A stretch of 41,371 nt of DNA from a virus, in IMG/VR virus record IMGVR_UViG_3300020183_000176, positions 1-41,371 of that record; one strand, 5' to 3'. Below, in pieces: positions 3,343 to 37,122 of this stretch; the stretch's first letter is position 1; each line of letters starts with the position of its first letter. The position numbers were made by a program, and so were the translations under genes. The notes under the pieces are model-generated. The model ran no database searches. It worked only from the letters and a program-made list of their open reading frames with translations, and had not been told where the DNA came from.

Positions 3343-3828
3343 ATGAACCTTAGAGGTTATTTTATTTTATTATTATCTGTACTGTTTGTAGGATCTTCCT
3401 ACTCACAGAATATTTATATTGATAGTGTAAGGAACAGTATACCTACTGGTCCACTTACTGCTAATAAGAATCTTAGTTTTGGTGTAAAGAACATCTTAGC
3501 TGAAGTACTTCAAGACAAAGGTCTTGATCTTCTTCCTAAAAAAGAAGAAGGAGAGCTTAGCTTAGTTACTGAGATATACTTCTTTGATATTGTACAAACC
3601 AATGGTGGTGTATCTGTATTTAAGAAGCAGGCTAACACAACTGTTATGGGCCTGAAAGGCATGCTGTATAAAAACGGCAAGCTCGTTAGTTCTAAAAAGA
3701 TAGAAGAATCATCCTCTGAAATAGTAATAGCCAACCTGGTTGTTCCTGAAGATGGTAAACCCAATCAACAGTCTGTTAGTAATGTAATTAAAAAAGCCTG
3801 TCAAGCTCTAATTGACAAACTCCTATGA
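3343..3828 (+). CDS. Exported CsgG-related protein (divergent, short)
   Basis: A 161-aa protein with an N-terminal signal peptide (hydrophobic YFILLLSVLFVGSSYS, likely cleaved before QNIY). The mature part can be aligned by eye to the CsgG-like protein encoded at 6904-7665. LSFGVKNILAEVLQDKGLDL parallels LGVTNIIVEYLEETGRF, EIYFFDI parallels EVYDFSV, and the C-terminal helices also match. It is therefore probably a shortened relative of the same fold. The gene overlaps the next start by 4 bases (ATGA). Its exact role in envelope transport is unknown. Confidence 0.65.
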   Translation: MNLRGYFILLLSVLFVGSSYSQNIYIDSVRNSIPTGPLTANKNLSFGVKNILAEVLQDKGLDLLPKKEEGELSLVTEIYFFDIVQTNGGVSVFKKQANTTVMGLKGMLYKNGKLVSSKKIEESSSEIVIANLVVPEDGKPNQQSVSNVIKKACQALIDKLL

Positions 3829-5726
3829 GAAAACAACTTTTGCTTGCTTGCTTCCTTCTTTTCTCAACACTTAGTTTTTCCCAGTCTATTGGACATTTCC
3901 AACAGCTGGCTACCGTGAAGAGAGGAGATACATTAGATGTAGCTTGGTACTATCAACCTAGTGGTTCAGTAGATATCAGGACGTTTCAAGTGGACTTCCA
4001 GTTTAAAAAGGATCTGTTTACCTGGTTGAGTACTGCTATAGATACTCCGTATGTGACGACTGCACGCCAGCCTCAGCTGGACTATAGGCAATTTGATGGG
4101 TATAAATACAATACCTATACAGGTGGCAACTATACTTATTCATCTGATGCTAACTGGTCTGTTGGACGTAACTATTTAACACTTCCTGCCGGTACCGGGT
4201 TTGGTACAAACAATGGATATATAATCCATAATAAGTACAAGATCAATGCTGTAGCATCAAACTTCGTGTCTGATACAATCACTGTAAACTGGGCTAGACT
4301 GTTTAAAGTAGACGGTACCAGTATAGGAGACAACGTAGCAACTCTTACAAATAAGAAGCTTGCTATCTTCTTACAGGGTAACTTGACTATTTCAGGTAAG
4401 ATCTGGATGGGAGAAGCCACTGGTCTACCTACTATCATAGCATATAACAATAATACTGGTATAGAAGCTTCCCGTACAGTTCCTGCTGCTAATGGTACGT
4501 ATACACTAACTAACATAGAACAGAACACTAAGTATAAAATTAAGGTGTTGTTCTCTCGTGATAGTTTAATTACAATGCGTGACCGTGCAGTTACTGTAGC
4601 AGATGCTGTAAAGACATATAATGAATTCAAGGGAGCTGATGTTACTCAGAACTACCCAAGAACATTCTTGACAAATGGATTAGCCTATCTGATTGCGGAT
4701 GTAAACCGTAACGGACAGCTAGATGGTGGTGATCCTTATGGGATCTATGCATCTGTATCAGGACTTCTTCCTGTAGATACATCACGTTTAGTAAACGTGT
4801 TTTTAAAGAATGAGTTTGACTCTTTGGCTATAGCAGCTAACCAGTGGACAGCCTGGGCTAATAACCGTGATAAGGGATTGTTTGTATATGACTCTGTGAC
4901 TACAGTTAACTCTGTAAATATAGACATTAAGTATATGTTACTTGGTGACGTAGATAGATCTCACTCTTCACCGGTTTATAACTCACAGGGACAACTAGTA
5001 GCTCGTACAATTTATAGAGGTGATATCAACGTAAATATCCCAGATACTTATGTGAATAATTCTCAGCCACTGTTTGTACCGTTTAATGTAGACTATGCTA
5101 GTTATAAAAATACAGGACTTCAGTTTGAGATGAAATACGATCCTGCTGTAGTTAGATTTGACCAAATCCAGTCTAACATTGATGGTCCTTGGTTACAGTA
5201 TATAACAAATGACTCTACAAATGGTATAGTACGCTTTGGTGGCATGAATAACCAAAACAAAGGATTTTTAACAGGAGAGTTTACACCATATAAGCTTAAG
5301 TTCTCTCCTAAAAATCTGGGAACTAATATCACTACGTTTGTATATGTGAGACGTTTAATGGATGCAGCAGATGAGAATGGGGACCATTATAACATTGTGC
5401 TTCAGTCTGATCGTATAGTAATGAGCTACCGTATGAATGGCGGTGTTCCAATTTATACAAACATGGAGCCTACTATAGCAGTTAATCCTAATCCTACTAC
5501 AGGACAGTTTGAGGTAGTGATATTCCTTCCTAAGAATAGTACAATGAATGCACTGGTTTATGATATGCAAGGTAGAAAGATTATGGATCTTGGTAAGTTT
5601 GAGACACAGGATACAGAGTTTACTTTTCGTAAACCAGTTTCTGGTACAGGAATCCCTGCAGGTATGTACAATTTAGTATTATTTGATAACCGTAAACGTA
5701 TAACAACTAAACTAGTTAAATCCTAA
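3825..5726 (+). CDS. Secreted modular protein with T9SS C-terminal sorting domain
   Basis: This 633-aa protein has a signal peptide (residues 1-20, LLLACFLLFSTLSFSQ). A cohesin-like beta domain follows (about 25-180), then a carboxypeptidase-regulatory-like beta domain (about 187-243) and a dockerin-like calcium loop (DVNRNGQLDGGD, 292-303) with a second loop GDVDRSHSS (374-382). A second cohesin-like domain spans about 410-535. The last ~80 residues match the type IX secretion sorting domain: NPNPTTGQF, VYDMQGRKI, IPAGMYNLVLF and a terminal KLVKS. The protein should be exported by Sec and then by the host T9SS to the cell surface. A phage gene with this signal is unusual. No catalytic residues are recognised. 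Confidence 0.85.
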   Translation: MRKQLLLACFLLFSTLSFSQSIGHFQQLATVKRGDTLDVAWYYQPSGSVDIRTFQVDFQFKKDLFTWLSTAIDTPYVTTARQPQLDYRQFDGYKYNTYTGGNYTYSSDANWSVGRNYLTLPAGTGFGTNNGYIIHNKYKINAVASNFVSDTITVNWARLFKVDGTSIGDNVATLTNKKLAIFLQGNLTISGKIWMGEATGLPTIIAYNNNTGIEASRTVPAANGTYTLTNIEQNTKYKIKVLFSRDSLITMRDRAVTVADAVKTYNEFKGADVTQNYPRTFLTNGLAYLIADVNRNGQLDGGDPYGIYASVSGLLPVDTSRLVNVFLKNEFDSLAIAANQWTAWANNRDKGLFVYDSVTTVNSVNIDIKYMLLGDVDRSHSSPVYNSQGQLVARTIYRGDINVNIPDTYVNNSQPLFVPFNVDYASYKNTGLQFEMKYDPAVVRFDQIQSNIDGPWLQYITNDSTNGIVRFGGMNNQNKGFLTGEFTPYKLKFSPKNLGTNITTFVYVRRLMDAADENGDHYNIVLQSDRIVMSYRMNGGVPIYTNMEPTIAVNPNPTTGQFEVVIFLPKNSTMNALVYDMQGRKIMDLGKFETQDTEFTFRKPVSGTGIPAGMYNLVLFDNRKRITTKLVKS

Positions 5727-22172: not shown

Positions 22173-22204
22173 TTAACGATTGCTTGCTTGCCTCTAAAAG
22201 GCAG

Positions 22205-22675
22205 TGGAGGTGGCGGGAGTTGAACCCGCGTCCAATAATGAAGTTAATACGTACTGCTCGTTACATGCTTAGTACTGATATGTCACAAATCTTTGAAGAA
22301 TTGTGACAGTCTGCACCGTAAGGGATAACTGTCTATTTACAACTTCAGTTTTAGTTGGAAAGATGGATCAAGATGTCTTGAAGTCTTTCAGTTTTGAATA
22401 TCAGCACGCCATTAGTATCCGGTAGTTTATAGGCTACCATCATAGGACTCTGTCTATTCAGCTACTATTTTCTGTTGCCAAGGATAGATCCTCCGTAGGG
22501 TTAGGCAGCTACTGCTACTTCACCGAAGATAGAAGCCAAGATAGCTTCACCTTCTGCTACACGCTCAGACTTAGTCGTTGCGTTTGTTTTCTGATTCCGA
22601 GATTAAAGTGGTTGGAGAACCGTCCCACTGCATGTGTACATACCACTCACACTACTGTCAAAACCAGGCACCCCC
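22205..22675 (-). ncRNA. ssrA: Transfer-messenger RNA (tmRNA)
   Basis: The 5' end reads GGGGGTGCCTGGTTTTGACA, the tmRNA start with its D-like segment. The 3' end has the canonical T-arm (CGGGTTCAACTCCCG) and CACCTCC, which pairs with GGGGGTG over 7 bp with one G-U. The discriminator is A and CCA is not encoded. The tag reading frame closes at TAA 22501-22503 after codons for GEVAVAA; Ala-Ala ends are usual degradation tags and Bacteroidota tags commonly begin GE. In frame upstream there is also GEAILASIF, so the resume codon is not certain. At 471 bases it is longer than most bacterial tmRNAs. An 8-bp helix is visible at 22281-22308. It should rescue stalled ribosomes in the infected cell. 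Confidence 0.93.
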
Positions 22676-26876: not shown

Positions 26877-27452
26877 TTATAAACGTTTATTAATAAGTTT
26901 AGATTTACATATATCGCAGAAGTAAGTACTTTCTTGATCTATTTGTTTGATTGTACCTTTTGCAGAACTCATTAAACATTTAGAGTTATTAGTACAATGA
27001 TCAAGACCAAAATTATGACCTACCTCATGTATTGAAATTTTATTAATACGCTCAAGAACTAGATTTTTAGAAATATGTTTTAATCTATAAACAGATACAA
27101 CGCATATGTTACTGTTGCGTTTTGCAAGCCCAAATATTCCCCACTCGGGTTGACTGGGTGTTTTAGTATAACAAATATCTTTTTCAGTAACAAGAACCGT
27201 ATGATTAGATGTTTGATACTTATCAAGCATTTTTTGAGCATCATATCTATTAGTTCTTATTTTAGCGTGTATGTCTTTAGTTCCACTTATAGGCGTATTA
27301 ATTATACATTTAATATTATAAAAAGATTCTAATGAAGACTTGATAGTATTTATGTAAGTCTTATTTACATTATCTATAGGTTGTATATATATAACTGACT
27401 TAGAATTTACATAAAAAAGCTGAATGATAACGAAAAACAGTAAAGTTTTCAT
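26877..27452 (-). CDS. Exported archaemetzincin metalloprotease
   Basis: A 191-aa protein with a short N-terminal signal (MKTLLFFVIIQLFYVNSKS). The zinc site matches archaemetzincin: HEVGHNFG (142-149), LDH, Cys153, Cys159-x-Met161, then 17 residues to Cys179-x2-Cys182. This agrees with the known HExxHxxGx3Cx4CxMx17CxxC pattern except that the first Cys-Cys gap is 5. The catalytic Glu143 and the Cys for the second zinc are present. It probably cleaves peptides in the periplasm or outside the cell. Phage archaemetzincins are rare. Confidence 0.85.
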   Translation of the reverse strand: MKTLLFFVIIQLFYVNSKSVIYIQPIDNVNKTYINTIKSSLESFYNIKCIINTPISGTKDIHAKIRTNRYDAQKMLDKYQTSNHTVLVTEKDICYTKTPSQPEWGIFGLAKRNSNICVVSVYRLKHISKNLVLERINKISIHEVGHNFGLDHCTNNSKCLMSSAKGTIKQIDQESTYFCDICKSKLINKRL

Positions 27453-28214: not shown

Positions 28215-29030
28215 AAAGGTTTTTGATGACTTGGAAAGTTAGAATGGTGCATTAAAGTTTCTGAAAGGCTGAGTGTTGACCTACAGATGCTACCGTTTTC
28301 ATAGGGTTACCCCTACTTATACACACAACAGATTACTCCATTGTAGATAGCAGTACCAGTGTTTTACCTCACTCCTGAGGGATCTTTCTCCAGATTACAT
28401 AGACTTTGATTTCTACCAAGTGGACTGGATGGTCCTAAGCTACATCCCTGCAGCTACTTAGATATACTCTCTCTATCTCACAGCTTTCCTTGCGGTACTG
28501 GCTGTGCTGTCATATTACAGACAGATAAGGTACTTTGACCCAGAGAACTGAATGACTTTTGCTTATTTAATTTTTAATTAAATAACAATAGCATAATCCA
28601 AGACGTGCAATCAGAATACAGCTCACTCCCTTTTGAGAAGTGCGTACTGTAACGCCTCAGTGTAGGTTACCAGCCTACGGTATAATCAAGACCCTGTTAC
28701 CAGGCCTCGGTTATACTAAATAACGCAGTAAGTCTTTTGGTAAAGACCTTCCACATATATCCTACAGGTTTTGTCCTATTGTGGTTTCCCACTCAACAGT
28801 GTATGCTGACACTGTAGCCACTCAGGGGTTTCCCCACTGCAGCTGTTACCCGTTTGCTTACTCGGCCGGTATTACTACCGTAGACATACGCTTGTTAACG
28901 CACATCTTTTATACCTGTCACCAGGTTTATCCTAAGGACCATAAGCGGCCCTGCCAATTAGTAGCTGATCAAGTCAGCTTAACGTACGACACCGTGAGTA
29001 TTTAAACTCTGAAGGTTTGGCTTGTGTACT
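28215..29030 (-). ncRNA. Large ornate structured RNA (class undetermined)
   Basis: About 815 bases with no convincing ORF on the minus strand. At least eight hairpins are capped by GNRA tetraloops. They include ACCTG-GTGA-CAGGT (28913-28926), CGGTA-GTAA-TACCG (28867-28880), GGGGAAACCCC (28825-28835), GTGG-GAAA-CCAC (28781-28792) and CCTG-GTAA-CAGG (28693-28704). CC-GCAA-GG sits inside CACAGC/GCTGTG (28479-28506); AGCTGCA-GGGA-TGTAGCT (28438-28455) and TAGGG-GTAA-CCCTA (28302-28315) complete the set. A 10-bp A/T stem lies at 28563-28585 and a 7-bp stem at 28796-28815. A terminator precedes it. The style matches phage-borne GOLLD or ROOL RNAs, but I cannot assign a family. Ends are approximate. 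Confidence 0.75.
28230..28256 (-). repeat. Copy 1 of a 27-base intergenic element
   Basis: On the minus strand TTTAATGCACCATTCTAACT and seven more bases. It is nearly identical to 29903-29929 (3 to 4 differences in 27). It lies just before the ATG of gene 27985-28206. A regulatory role is plausible. Confidence 0.65.
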
Positions 29031-29035
29031 TAAAA

Positions 29036-29054
29036 GAACCTAGTATATAGGTTC
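29036..29054 (-). terminator. Intrinsic terminator overlapping a stop codon
   Basis: GAACCTA/TAGGTTC with a 5-base loop, then TTTTA on the minus strand. The stem contains the stop of the 57-aa gene and separates it from the structured RNA. Confidence 0.75.
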
Positions 29055-29226
29055 ATGTGAGATCTAATATCTCTTTCTTGGTTAGACAAACAAGGCTTAA
29101 ACAATTTTGTATAACAAATACAGCTTTGCCTTTAACGCCCTTGATATTAAGTTCATACCCAATACGGCCTATATAAAGTAGTCTACCTAAGTGTTTGTCT
29201 GTGTAAATAGCTTCTAGTTTAAGCAT
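29053..29226 (-). CDS. Small hypothetical protein (57 aa)
   Basis: ATG 29226 to TGA 29053-29055. Product MLKLEAIYTDKHLGRLLYIG, then YELNIKGVKGKAVFVIQNCL, ending KEILDLT. It is soluble with a strand pattern. Bounded by a hairpin upstream and a terminator downstream, as expected for a monocistronic unit. Function unknown. Confidence 0.6.
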   Translation of the reverse strand: MLKLEAIYTDKHLGRLLYIGRIGYELNIKGVKGKAVFVIQNCLSLVCLTKKEILDLT

Positions 29227-29264
29227 ATATTGAGAGGTTGGTTTATAATATGAAGTATCACCAG

Positions 29265-29314
29265 AGATACCTATAACATAGAGTACTATATAGTACTGGT
29301 ATGTTTAGGTATCT
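29265..29314 (-). promoter_or_regulatory. 50-base near-palindrome
   Basis: AGATACCT and AGGTATCT at the ends and a central AGTACTATATAGTACT palindrome form one long hairpin with small bulges. It lies 38 bases upstream of the 57-aa gene and just past the MazG-like gene stop. It could be a terminator, a dimeric operator, or an RNA element; there is no clear T-run. Confidence 0.5.
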
Positions 29315-29323
29315 GTAGAGATA

Positions 29324-29746: not shown

Positions 29747-29934
29747 AGGATTGGTATTTAGTTGGTTAACAATAGATTATAGGAAAAGTTTCCCTCTGCA
29801 CTCAGTTGTAGTTTATTATTTATCAGAGAGATGTCAACATATCATAGTTTCTATGAACTATGAAGATGCCAGCATTACCTGTCTCTTCTACAACCGCTAA
29901 CTCTTGGGAAGTGAGAGTGGTGCATTAAAACAAA
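29747..29934 (-). promoter_or_regulatory. ~190-base 5' leader with hairpins and shared element
   Basis: No credible ORF. Structures include CATAGTT/AACTATG and GGGAAA/TTTCC. At its far end (29903-29929) is the second copy of the 27-base element, directly after the terminator of the previous gene. It could hold the promoter and a structured 5'-UTR for the MazG-like gene. Confidence 0.5.
29903..29929 (-). repeat. Copy 2 of the 27-base intergenic element
   Basis: Minus strand TTTAATGCACCACTCTCACT followed by TCCCAAG. It is nearly the same as 28230-28256. It directly follows a terminator, which fits a promoter or operator. Confidence 0.65.
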
Positions 29935-29954
29935 AGAGCCTTGTTACAGGCTCT
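29935..29954 (-). terminator. Intrinsic terminator
   Basis: AGAGCCT/AGGCTCT with a 6-base loop and TTTTG-TTTT after it on the minus strand. It ends gene 29953-30120 and overlaps its stop. Confidence 0.8.
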
Positions 29955-30425: not shown

Positions 30426-30457
30426 GGTGAACCAGCCCACAGAGGAGCTAGTTCACC
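30426..30457 (-). terminator. Intrinsic terminator
   Basis: GGTGAAC/GTTCACC with an inner AGC/GCT stem, then eight T on the minus strand. Ends gene 30471-30695 and is followed at once by the leader of the next gene. Confidence 0.9.
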
Positions 30458-36372: not shown

Positions 36373-37025
36373 CAACAATAGTACCTATAGTAGAATATAA
36401 AAAAAGATTAGAGCAAGCTTTAAGTACTTCTCACAAAGTAGTACTTACAGATGAGGAGTATAACTATCGTAAAGAATACTCTATAGATTGGTCTGAAAAG
36501 AAACGTGATGCAGGCCCTCAATATATTATTGATGATAACTATTTAGAGAAACGTAGTACTAACGGCCACATGGGTCAAAGAGCTGTAGAAAAGTTTTTAG
36601 GTATAGAATTCACAGATCCTGATACATCATACAGTGTTAAAAAGAATATTCCTGATTTATTACCGGCCGGCTTACATGTTGGAGTTAAAACTCATAGAAA
36701 GCCTAATCCTCCAATGATTGAGTTTATACCAGATGACGTATACAAAAACCTAGAAATAGAAAAACAAAAGAAAGCCAGATACCCGCAGATCATTGTAACT
36801 AAAGATGATAACTGTGAAAAGACATTCTATATTCTTGGTGTTTATTCACCTAAAGTTTTATGGCATAACGATTTTATAGATAAAGGTTTGATATATGACG
36901 ATAAGCTTTTAAAGAAAGGAACCAAGACAGTCTTTTTTGGTGTACACAAAGCCGTACCTTTTAAAGATAAAGAAGAGTTGGTTTCTATAATTGGTCCTTT
37001 ATGGACTACTAATGTAGGGTGGTGA
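36369..37025 (+). CDS. Hypothetical protein (218 aa), possibly nuclease-like
   Basis: A 218-aa protein. A segment with Glu (QRAVEKFLGIEF) followed by IPDLLPAGLHVGVKTHRKPN weakly recalls a PD-(D/E)XK arrangement (PD, then VKT), but the second acid is not clear. The C-terminus has FFGVHKAVPFKDKEELVSII. Its last 13 bases, including the stop, lie inside the tRNA-like gene. Function uncertain. Confidence 0.6.
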   Translation: MTTIVPIVEYKKRLEQALSTSHKVVLTDEEYNYRKEYSIDWSEKKRDAGPQYIIDDNYLEKRSTNGHMGQRAVEKFLGIEFTDPDTSYSVKKNIPDLLPAGLHVGVKTHRKPNPPMIEFIPDDVYKNLEIEKQKKARYPQIIVTKDDNCEKTFYILGVYSPKVLWHNDFIDKGLIYDDKLLKKGTKTVFFGVHKAVPFKDKEELVSIIGPLWTTNVGW

Positions 37026-37106
37026 AACTGGCAGACACACCTCCTAGTCTCGGAGGCCGGAGTGGGGTATCCCGCTCGCTTGGAGGTTCAAATCCTCCCC
37101 CTACAG
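37013..37106 (+). tRNA. Class II tRNA (Leu-like) with odd anticodon loop
   Basis: Acceptor TGTAGGG/CCCTACA, T8-G9, D-arm GTG/CAC with the Leu-like AAACTGGCAGA loop, anticodon stem CCTCC/GGAGG, a 7-bp variable arm (GAGTGGG/CCCGCTC), and T-arm GGAGG-TTCAAAT-CCTCC. The discriminator is G and CCA is not encoded. The 7-base anticodon loop reads TAGTCTC: position 33 is A instead of the universal U, and positions 34-36 read GTC, which does not fit a Leu-like class II tRNA. It may be non-functional in decoding or be an unusual tRNA. It overlaps the end of the upstream gene. Confidence 0.8.
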
Positions 37107-37122
37107 CATTAAACTAATTTTT

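Follow-up and report, generated by a model that had tools for sequence, protein, structure and literature searches.

GOLLD RNAs are carried by phages and prophages, where tRNA genes often lie nearby, and form one of the largest RNA-only assemblies known. The family is defined by a 3' region that is conserved and a 5' region that is divergent (PMC12286853). In env-38, a member whose structure has been solved, 14 chains form a cage in which the 5' domains are the caps, the 3' domains are the ring, and a disordered linker lies inside; this homo-14-mer has bridges B1-B10, and expression of env-38 rises during lysis (PMC12286853). ROOL, another large RNA of phages, is also described in the literature as forming a cage. 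Among self-cleaving RNAs, the order of elements in type P1 twister has been described (PMC5408937), and different ribozyme classes have been found to share the same types of location in phages (PMC10085705).

The window analysed here (the whole stretch of 41,371 nucleotides, IMG/VR record IMGVR_UViG_3300020183_000176) encodes a large structured RNA on its minus strand, at about 28266-29031. The probability that this RNA is a divergent GOLLD with its fold is put at roughly 85%. It resembles env-38 in having its 3' helices in order, a variable AU-rich linker, and a separate 5' domain, and it resembles GOLLD more generally in its size near 800 nt and its phage origin (PMC12286853). It differs from GOLLD as modeled in RF02032 in that it lies below the gathering score, is carried by what is likely a crAss-like Bacteroidota phage, and has a shortened 5' end; furthermore, its kin carry ribozyme-like elements at the 3' end. 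The parts of the RNA are as follows.

28266-28660, minus strand: GOLLD 3' domain, the whole RF02032 model (cmscan and covariation)
28661-29031, minus strand: GOLLD 5' domain as retained in the window phage (homologue alignment and covarying hairpins)
28560-28599, minus strand: AU-rich variable linker joining the domains, predicted to point into the cage (low conservation, indels)
28529-28534, minus strand: long-range helix, 5' strand AGUACC (columns 767-772 of alignment A5)
28352-28357, minus strand: long-range helix, 3' strand GGUACU (A5 columns 950-955)
29036-29054, minus strand: terminator-like hairpin with a T-run at the 5' edge of GOLLD (pattern scan)

Fold and family of the minus-strand RNA

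The minus strand of this stretch folds at -261 kcal/mol (z -5.6; 0 of 20 shuffles as good), versus a z of -1.0 for the plus strand against its own shuffles. There is no substantial ORF; the only overlap is with a 74-aa GTG ORF on the plus strand. When a loop is counted only if it is closed by at least 4 pairs, the minus strand contains seven GNRA hairpins (GTGA, four GTAA, GAAA, GGGA) and the plus strand none, and first-order Markov sequences (n=2000) average 0.58 and never exceed 5. A sequence-only reading of this DNA had proposed an ornate minus-strand RNA without a gene, and both the fold and the GNRA excess confirm it. The eight GNRA stems that it counted include weaker ones. The extent that it gave, 28215-29030, was almost right: homology runs from about 29031 to 28266, and 28215-28260 is instead the remnant of a second element, which is treated below.

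An Rfam scan, which had been suggested at that time, yielded under permissive cmscan settings a minus-strand GOLLD match (28266-28660) that spans all 416 positions of the RF02032 model, with 112.5 bits and an E of 1.9e-30. The gathering score for GOLLD is 150 bits, 37.5 bits above this match, and consequently default annotation misses this GOLLD group; the E value lies well within the cutoff for membership in the latest family survey (E < 1e-5). Apart from GOLLD, the Rfam scan gave no convincing match to any family in the stretch, and ROOL had no Rfam match anywhere in the window. A blastn search of the RNA against annotated phages found nothing. GOLLD was also not found in 198 Bacteroidota genomes, in a search that can lose weak matches and had no control signal.

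Fourteen further RF02032 matches were obtained in other phage records. All cover model positions 1-416 and all fall under the cutoff (46-134 bits); one record repeats the RNA of another. Aligned with the window RNA (A5), these relatives are 42-90% identical to it. They came from several routes. Starting from the terminase, 80 loci were taken from 403 related stretches, and 44 records were searched for GOLLD; it was present in three of them (G003, G005, G007), syntenic and about 8 kb upstream of the terminase. L226, L232, L221, L217, L219, L223, L214, L218, L220, and L224 were located with pattern scans and a profile search, and L345, L398, L355, and L326 followed later. A loose pattern scan returned chance matches.

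Covariation in homologues, which had been named beforehand as the refuting test, is strong. The Rfam helices, derived independently of the alignment, were projected onto the 15-sequence MAFFT alignment: 77.7% of cells are paired versus 60.6% in shuffles, and the covariation is 0.490 versus 0.202, with 0 of 500 shuffles reaching either value. Sliding the partners by 1-3 columns leaves a covariation of at most 0.172. Double changes are seen in 48 of the 79 projected pairs, and RNAalifold on the 15 sequences gives compensatory change in 53 of 65 pairs. In the latter analysis the six pairs of the AGUACC/GGUACU helix are broken in none of the 15 sequences. Since this helix crosses the Rfam helices, it is a pseudoknot, which may or may not correspond to the one reported in the solved structure. 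Upstream, a 5' region of about 370 nt, less conserved than the 3' domain, can be aligned across homologues and contains covarying hairpins at A5 columns 174-190, 211-222, and 567-578.

The RF02032 model spans the 3' domain only and the score is under the gathering score, as would also be expected of a different giant RNA class having just a 3' module in common with GOLLD; in addition, one tandem hairpin pair has loops unlike those of most relatives. However, the model is covered in full, the helices come in the same order, and the variable linker lies at the same place. Furthermore, a conserved 3' region with a divergent 5' region is what defines GOLLD itself (PMC12286853). A separate class is thus very improbable. 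Of the possibilities raised earlier, GOLLD or ROOL on the one hand and a new class on the other, GOLLD is supported by the full-model match together with covariation, and the new class gives way to a divergent GOLLD variant.

The tandem hairpins just mentioned lie at 28379-28460 on the minus strand. Their loops, GGGA and CAUCCA, are common to the window, L008, and L326; most other relatives have CGCAA or CGUAA. The GGGA and CAUCCA loops could mark a changed cage interface; self-pairing and cross-pairing both fit, and no such change is claimed.

The phage, its host, and its other RNAs

The large terminase matched 120 phage records at about 25% identity, nearly all of them crAss-like, Bacteroides, or Flavobacterium phages; the matches include Crassvirales (Steigviridae, Suoliviridae) and Cellulophaga phages. 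Related terminases are also present in a Chitinophagaceae MAG and in Pseudomonadales and Campylobacteraceae MAGs, which may be misbinned. In addition, a phage protein encoded at 3825-5726 on the plus strand carries a Por secretion (type IX) C-terminal sorting domain, a domain typical of Bacteroidota. From these sequence comparisons, the window likely represents a freshwater crAss-like phage with a Bacteroidota host, and the Bacteroidota phage supposed by the sequence-only reading is supported by the terminase matches. GOLLD in crAss-like Bacteroidota phages would widen its known range, no earlier report having been found in the literature searched, and some crAss-like Bacteroidota phage relatives, of Flavobacterium and Bacteroides, can be cultured.

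Adjacency of tRNA genes to GOLLD is not consistent among the relatives: L226 has a tRNA-Met just upstream of GOLLD, and the only predicted tRNA of the window is 8 kb away. ARAGORN found no tRNA in the linker (28560-28599). The predicted tRNA is a tRNA-Asp at 37013-37107 on the plus strand, which is unusual in its 95 nt and overlaps a gene end. A tmRNA at 22202-22675 on the minus strand (Rfam 84.1 bits, full model) is the only match in the window at Rfam gathering thresholds, and ARAGORN does not detect it. An archaemetzincin-like (M54) peptidase gene is present at 26877-27452 on the minus strand.

Gene-free stretches of 1.5-2 kb were also seen in the crAssphages cr272_1 and cr273_1 (L417 2109-3621 and L418 2351-4347). 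These were considered as GOLLD carriers and rejected; only 50 nt are common with the GOLLD 5' region of L219, and there is no GOLLD match. Possibly they are other large RNAs.

A twister-like element

A second structured element, one that the sequence-only reading had not noticed, came to light through a 27-nt repeat of the sequence flanking GOLLD at its 3' end. It is laid out as U-AAUGCACCA, a hairpin with the loop UUCCCAAGG, a hairpin of variable length, and then GAGUGCAGAGGG. At least 81 distinct copies are present in the retrieved phage contigs, in tandem in L295, L315, L345, and L366. The window contains two copies, together with a hairpin that overlaps one of them.

29783-29936, minus strand: intact twister-like element (model R1 82.9 bits, E 1.5e-22, the sequence being also in the R1 training set; covariation)
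29935-29954, minus strand: terminator-like hairpin overlapping the start of the intact element (pattern scan)
28229-28256, minus strand: 5' half of a broken twister-like element, about 12 nt past the GOLLD 3' end (1 pattern mismatch, 0 expected)

The intact copy has the orientation of GOLLD and precedes it by about 0.75 kb; its predicted scissile bond is between 29927 and 29926. The broken copy reaches only 6.5 bits with R1 and has no 3' half; its counterpart in L008 is intact.

In the outer stem, P1, 267 positions are complementary versus 200 +/- 8.6 in shuffles (maximum 235). Over 40 sequences, the covariation of the element is 0.333 versus 0.136 in shuffles (0 of 500). P1 and P4 covary, P2 is invariant and fully complementary in 40 of 40, and the twister order P1, P2, P4 is present. 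The U of the predicted U-A cleavage dinucleotide is found in 78 of the 81 retrieved copies, this total being a lower bound. The AA next to P1 is invariant in the alignment and was required by the search pattern. The CCC/GGG pairing of the T1 pseudoknot, three pairs, is complementary in 40 of 40 and invariant, and hence gives no covariation signal. In the region of the T2 pseudoknot (L2-L4), CC and GG are conserved at plausible places, but they are shared with P2.

For the detailed sequence comparison with twister, the reference was the rice twister. With type P1 twister (RF03160; PMC5408937) the element has in common the topology P1-U-A-A-P2-P4 hairpin with CCCAA loop-P2'-GGG-P1' and the T1 pseudoknot, in which the loop pairs to GGG. 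It differs in placing a long hairpin at P5 while lacking one at P3, in its uncertain T2 pseudoknot and putative cleavage, and in the lack of a match at E <= 10 to the Rfam twister models or to any other Rfam family. Because the twister models do not match, the element is called twister-like rather than twister, and it is a candidate for a new ribozyme group outside Rfam.

An mRNA leader or a structure protecting 3' ends, placed after GOLLD by chance, would also account for an element that matches no Rfam ribozyme model, whose cleavage is predicted, and of which many copies lie between genes without GOLLD. This possibility is real yet rather unlikely. The twister topology comes together with the core of that ribozyme (a covarying P1 next to U-A-A, the CCC/GGG pseudoknot, a covarying P4), and in L326 a pistol ribozyme occupies the very same spot.

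Ribozyme-like elements at the ends of GOLLD

In five phages (L008, L226, L345, L355, L398) a twister-like element begins no more than 15 nt from the GOLLD 3' end and in the same orientation, and in L345 and L398 a second copy lies just before the 5' end, so that GOLLD is bracketed on both sides. In L326 (IMGVR_UViG_3300031758_000178), a phage other than that of the window, a pistol match (RF02679; L410:49-108, full model) directly follows the GOLLD 3' end, with 33.9 bits and an E of 5e-4, 0.6 bits under the gathering score of 34.5. L345, L355, L398, and L326 were found via the element's own pattern; L008 and L226 were not. The adjacent copies represent about three GOLLD lineages in addition to L326. 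Most other GOLLD relatives have no adjacent ribozyme, and in L217 GOLLD ends in an ordinary terminator. The terminase relatives contain about 6 twister-like elements in 681 kb, and thus the exact adjacency of the element to GOLLD on the same strand is very unlikely to have arisen by chance. A pistol at the position that elsewhere holds a twister-like element parallels the finding on ribozyme classes in phages (PMC10085705).

In the window itself, about 150 nt of structured 5' sequence common to L008, L014, L017, and others is absent, and 29031-29320 on the minus strand holds in its place a small ORF and the terminator-like hairpin at 29036-29054. The window copy may therefore be partly reduced. 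This replacement and the broken 3' element would be in keeping with a more advanced decay, in which the copy is nonfunctional and a core is left over after loss of the 5' module and the 3' ribozyme. However, the cores of the window and L008 have nearly equal folding energies (-251.5 versus -252.9 kcal/mol). Between the window and L008, its closest relative, there are 70 substitutions and 30 changed pairs, none broken and 9 changed on both sides, a count that is supportive only, since the consensus fold is chosen to fit both and favours kept pairs. A decaying copy is accordingly held to be distinctly unlikely, and a divergent GOLLD that keeps its fold is preferred.

Taken together with the env-38 structure, these results lead to the following model. 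The RNA would be transcribed from the minus strand and would fold into two domains, the 3' one conserved and the 5' one variable, with a short AU-rich linker between them. It would then close into a homo-oligomeric RNA cage with the linker inside, like the solved relative; by homology, formation of such a cage is somewhat probable. In part of the lineage, self-cleaving ribozymes would free the RNA from a longer phage transcript: a twister-like one (pistol in one phage) follows the 3' end and, in two phages, a further copy precedes the 5' end. The window phage has a decayed 3' copy and an intact copy upstream. The adjacency suggests how the cage RNAs are cut free, and for ribozyme processing in this part of the lineage, with predicted cleavage, the odds are about even. 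The more general proposal, in which the GOLLD of crAss-like and related phages is excised from long transcripts by ribozymes flanking it on one side or on both, could equally well prove right or wrong, and this balance extends to the whole of it, including a widespread twister-like class that is not in Rfam and can be replaced by pistol. If it is true, excision leaves the cage subunits with exact ends (2',3'-cyclic phosphate), and the ribozyme-like elements at the ends of GOLLD thus provide a concrete hypothesis for uniform cage subunits. As pistol cuts near its own 3' end, in L326 GOLLD would retain the ribozyme. No paper treating both GOLLD and self-cleaving was found in the literature search. 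As its most likely role, the cage might late in infection contain or scaffold RNA cargo of the cell or of the phage (tRNAs, ribosomes); this is a conjecture from the literature, in which confidence is low.

A search near GOLLD did not reveal the Bacteroidota promoter consensus. Farther upstream, at 30426-30457 on the minus strand, there is a hairpin GGTGAACY...GGTTCACC followed by a T-run, and a similar one is present upstream of GOLLD in L014 and L017.
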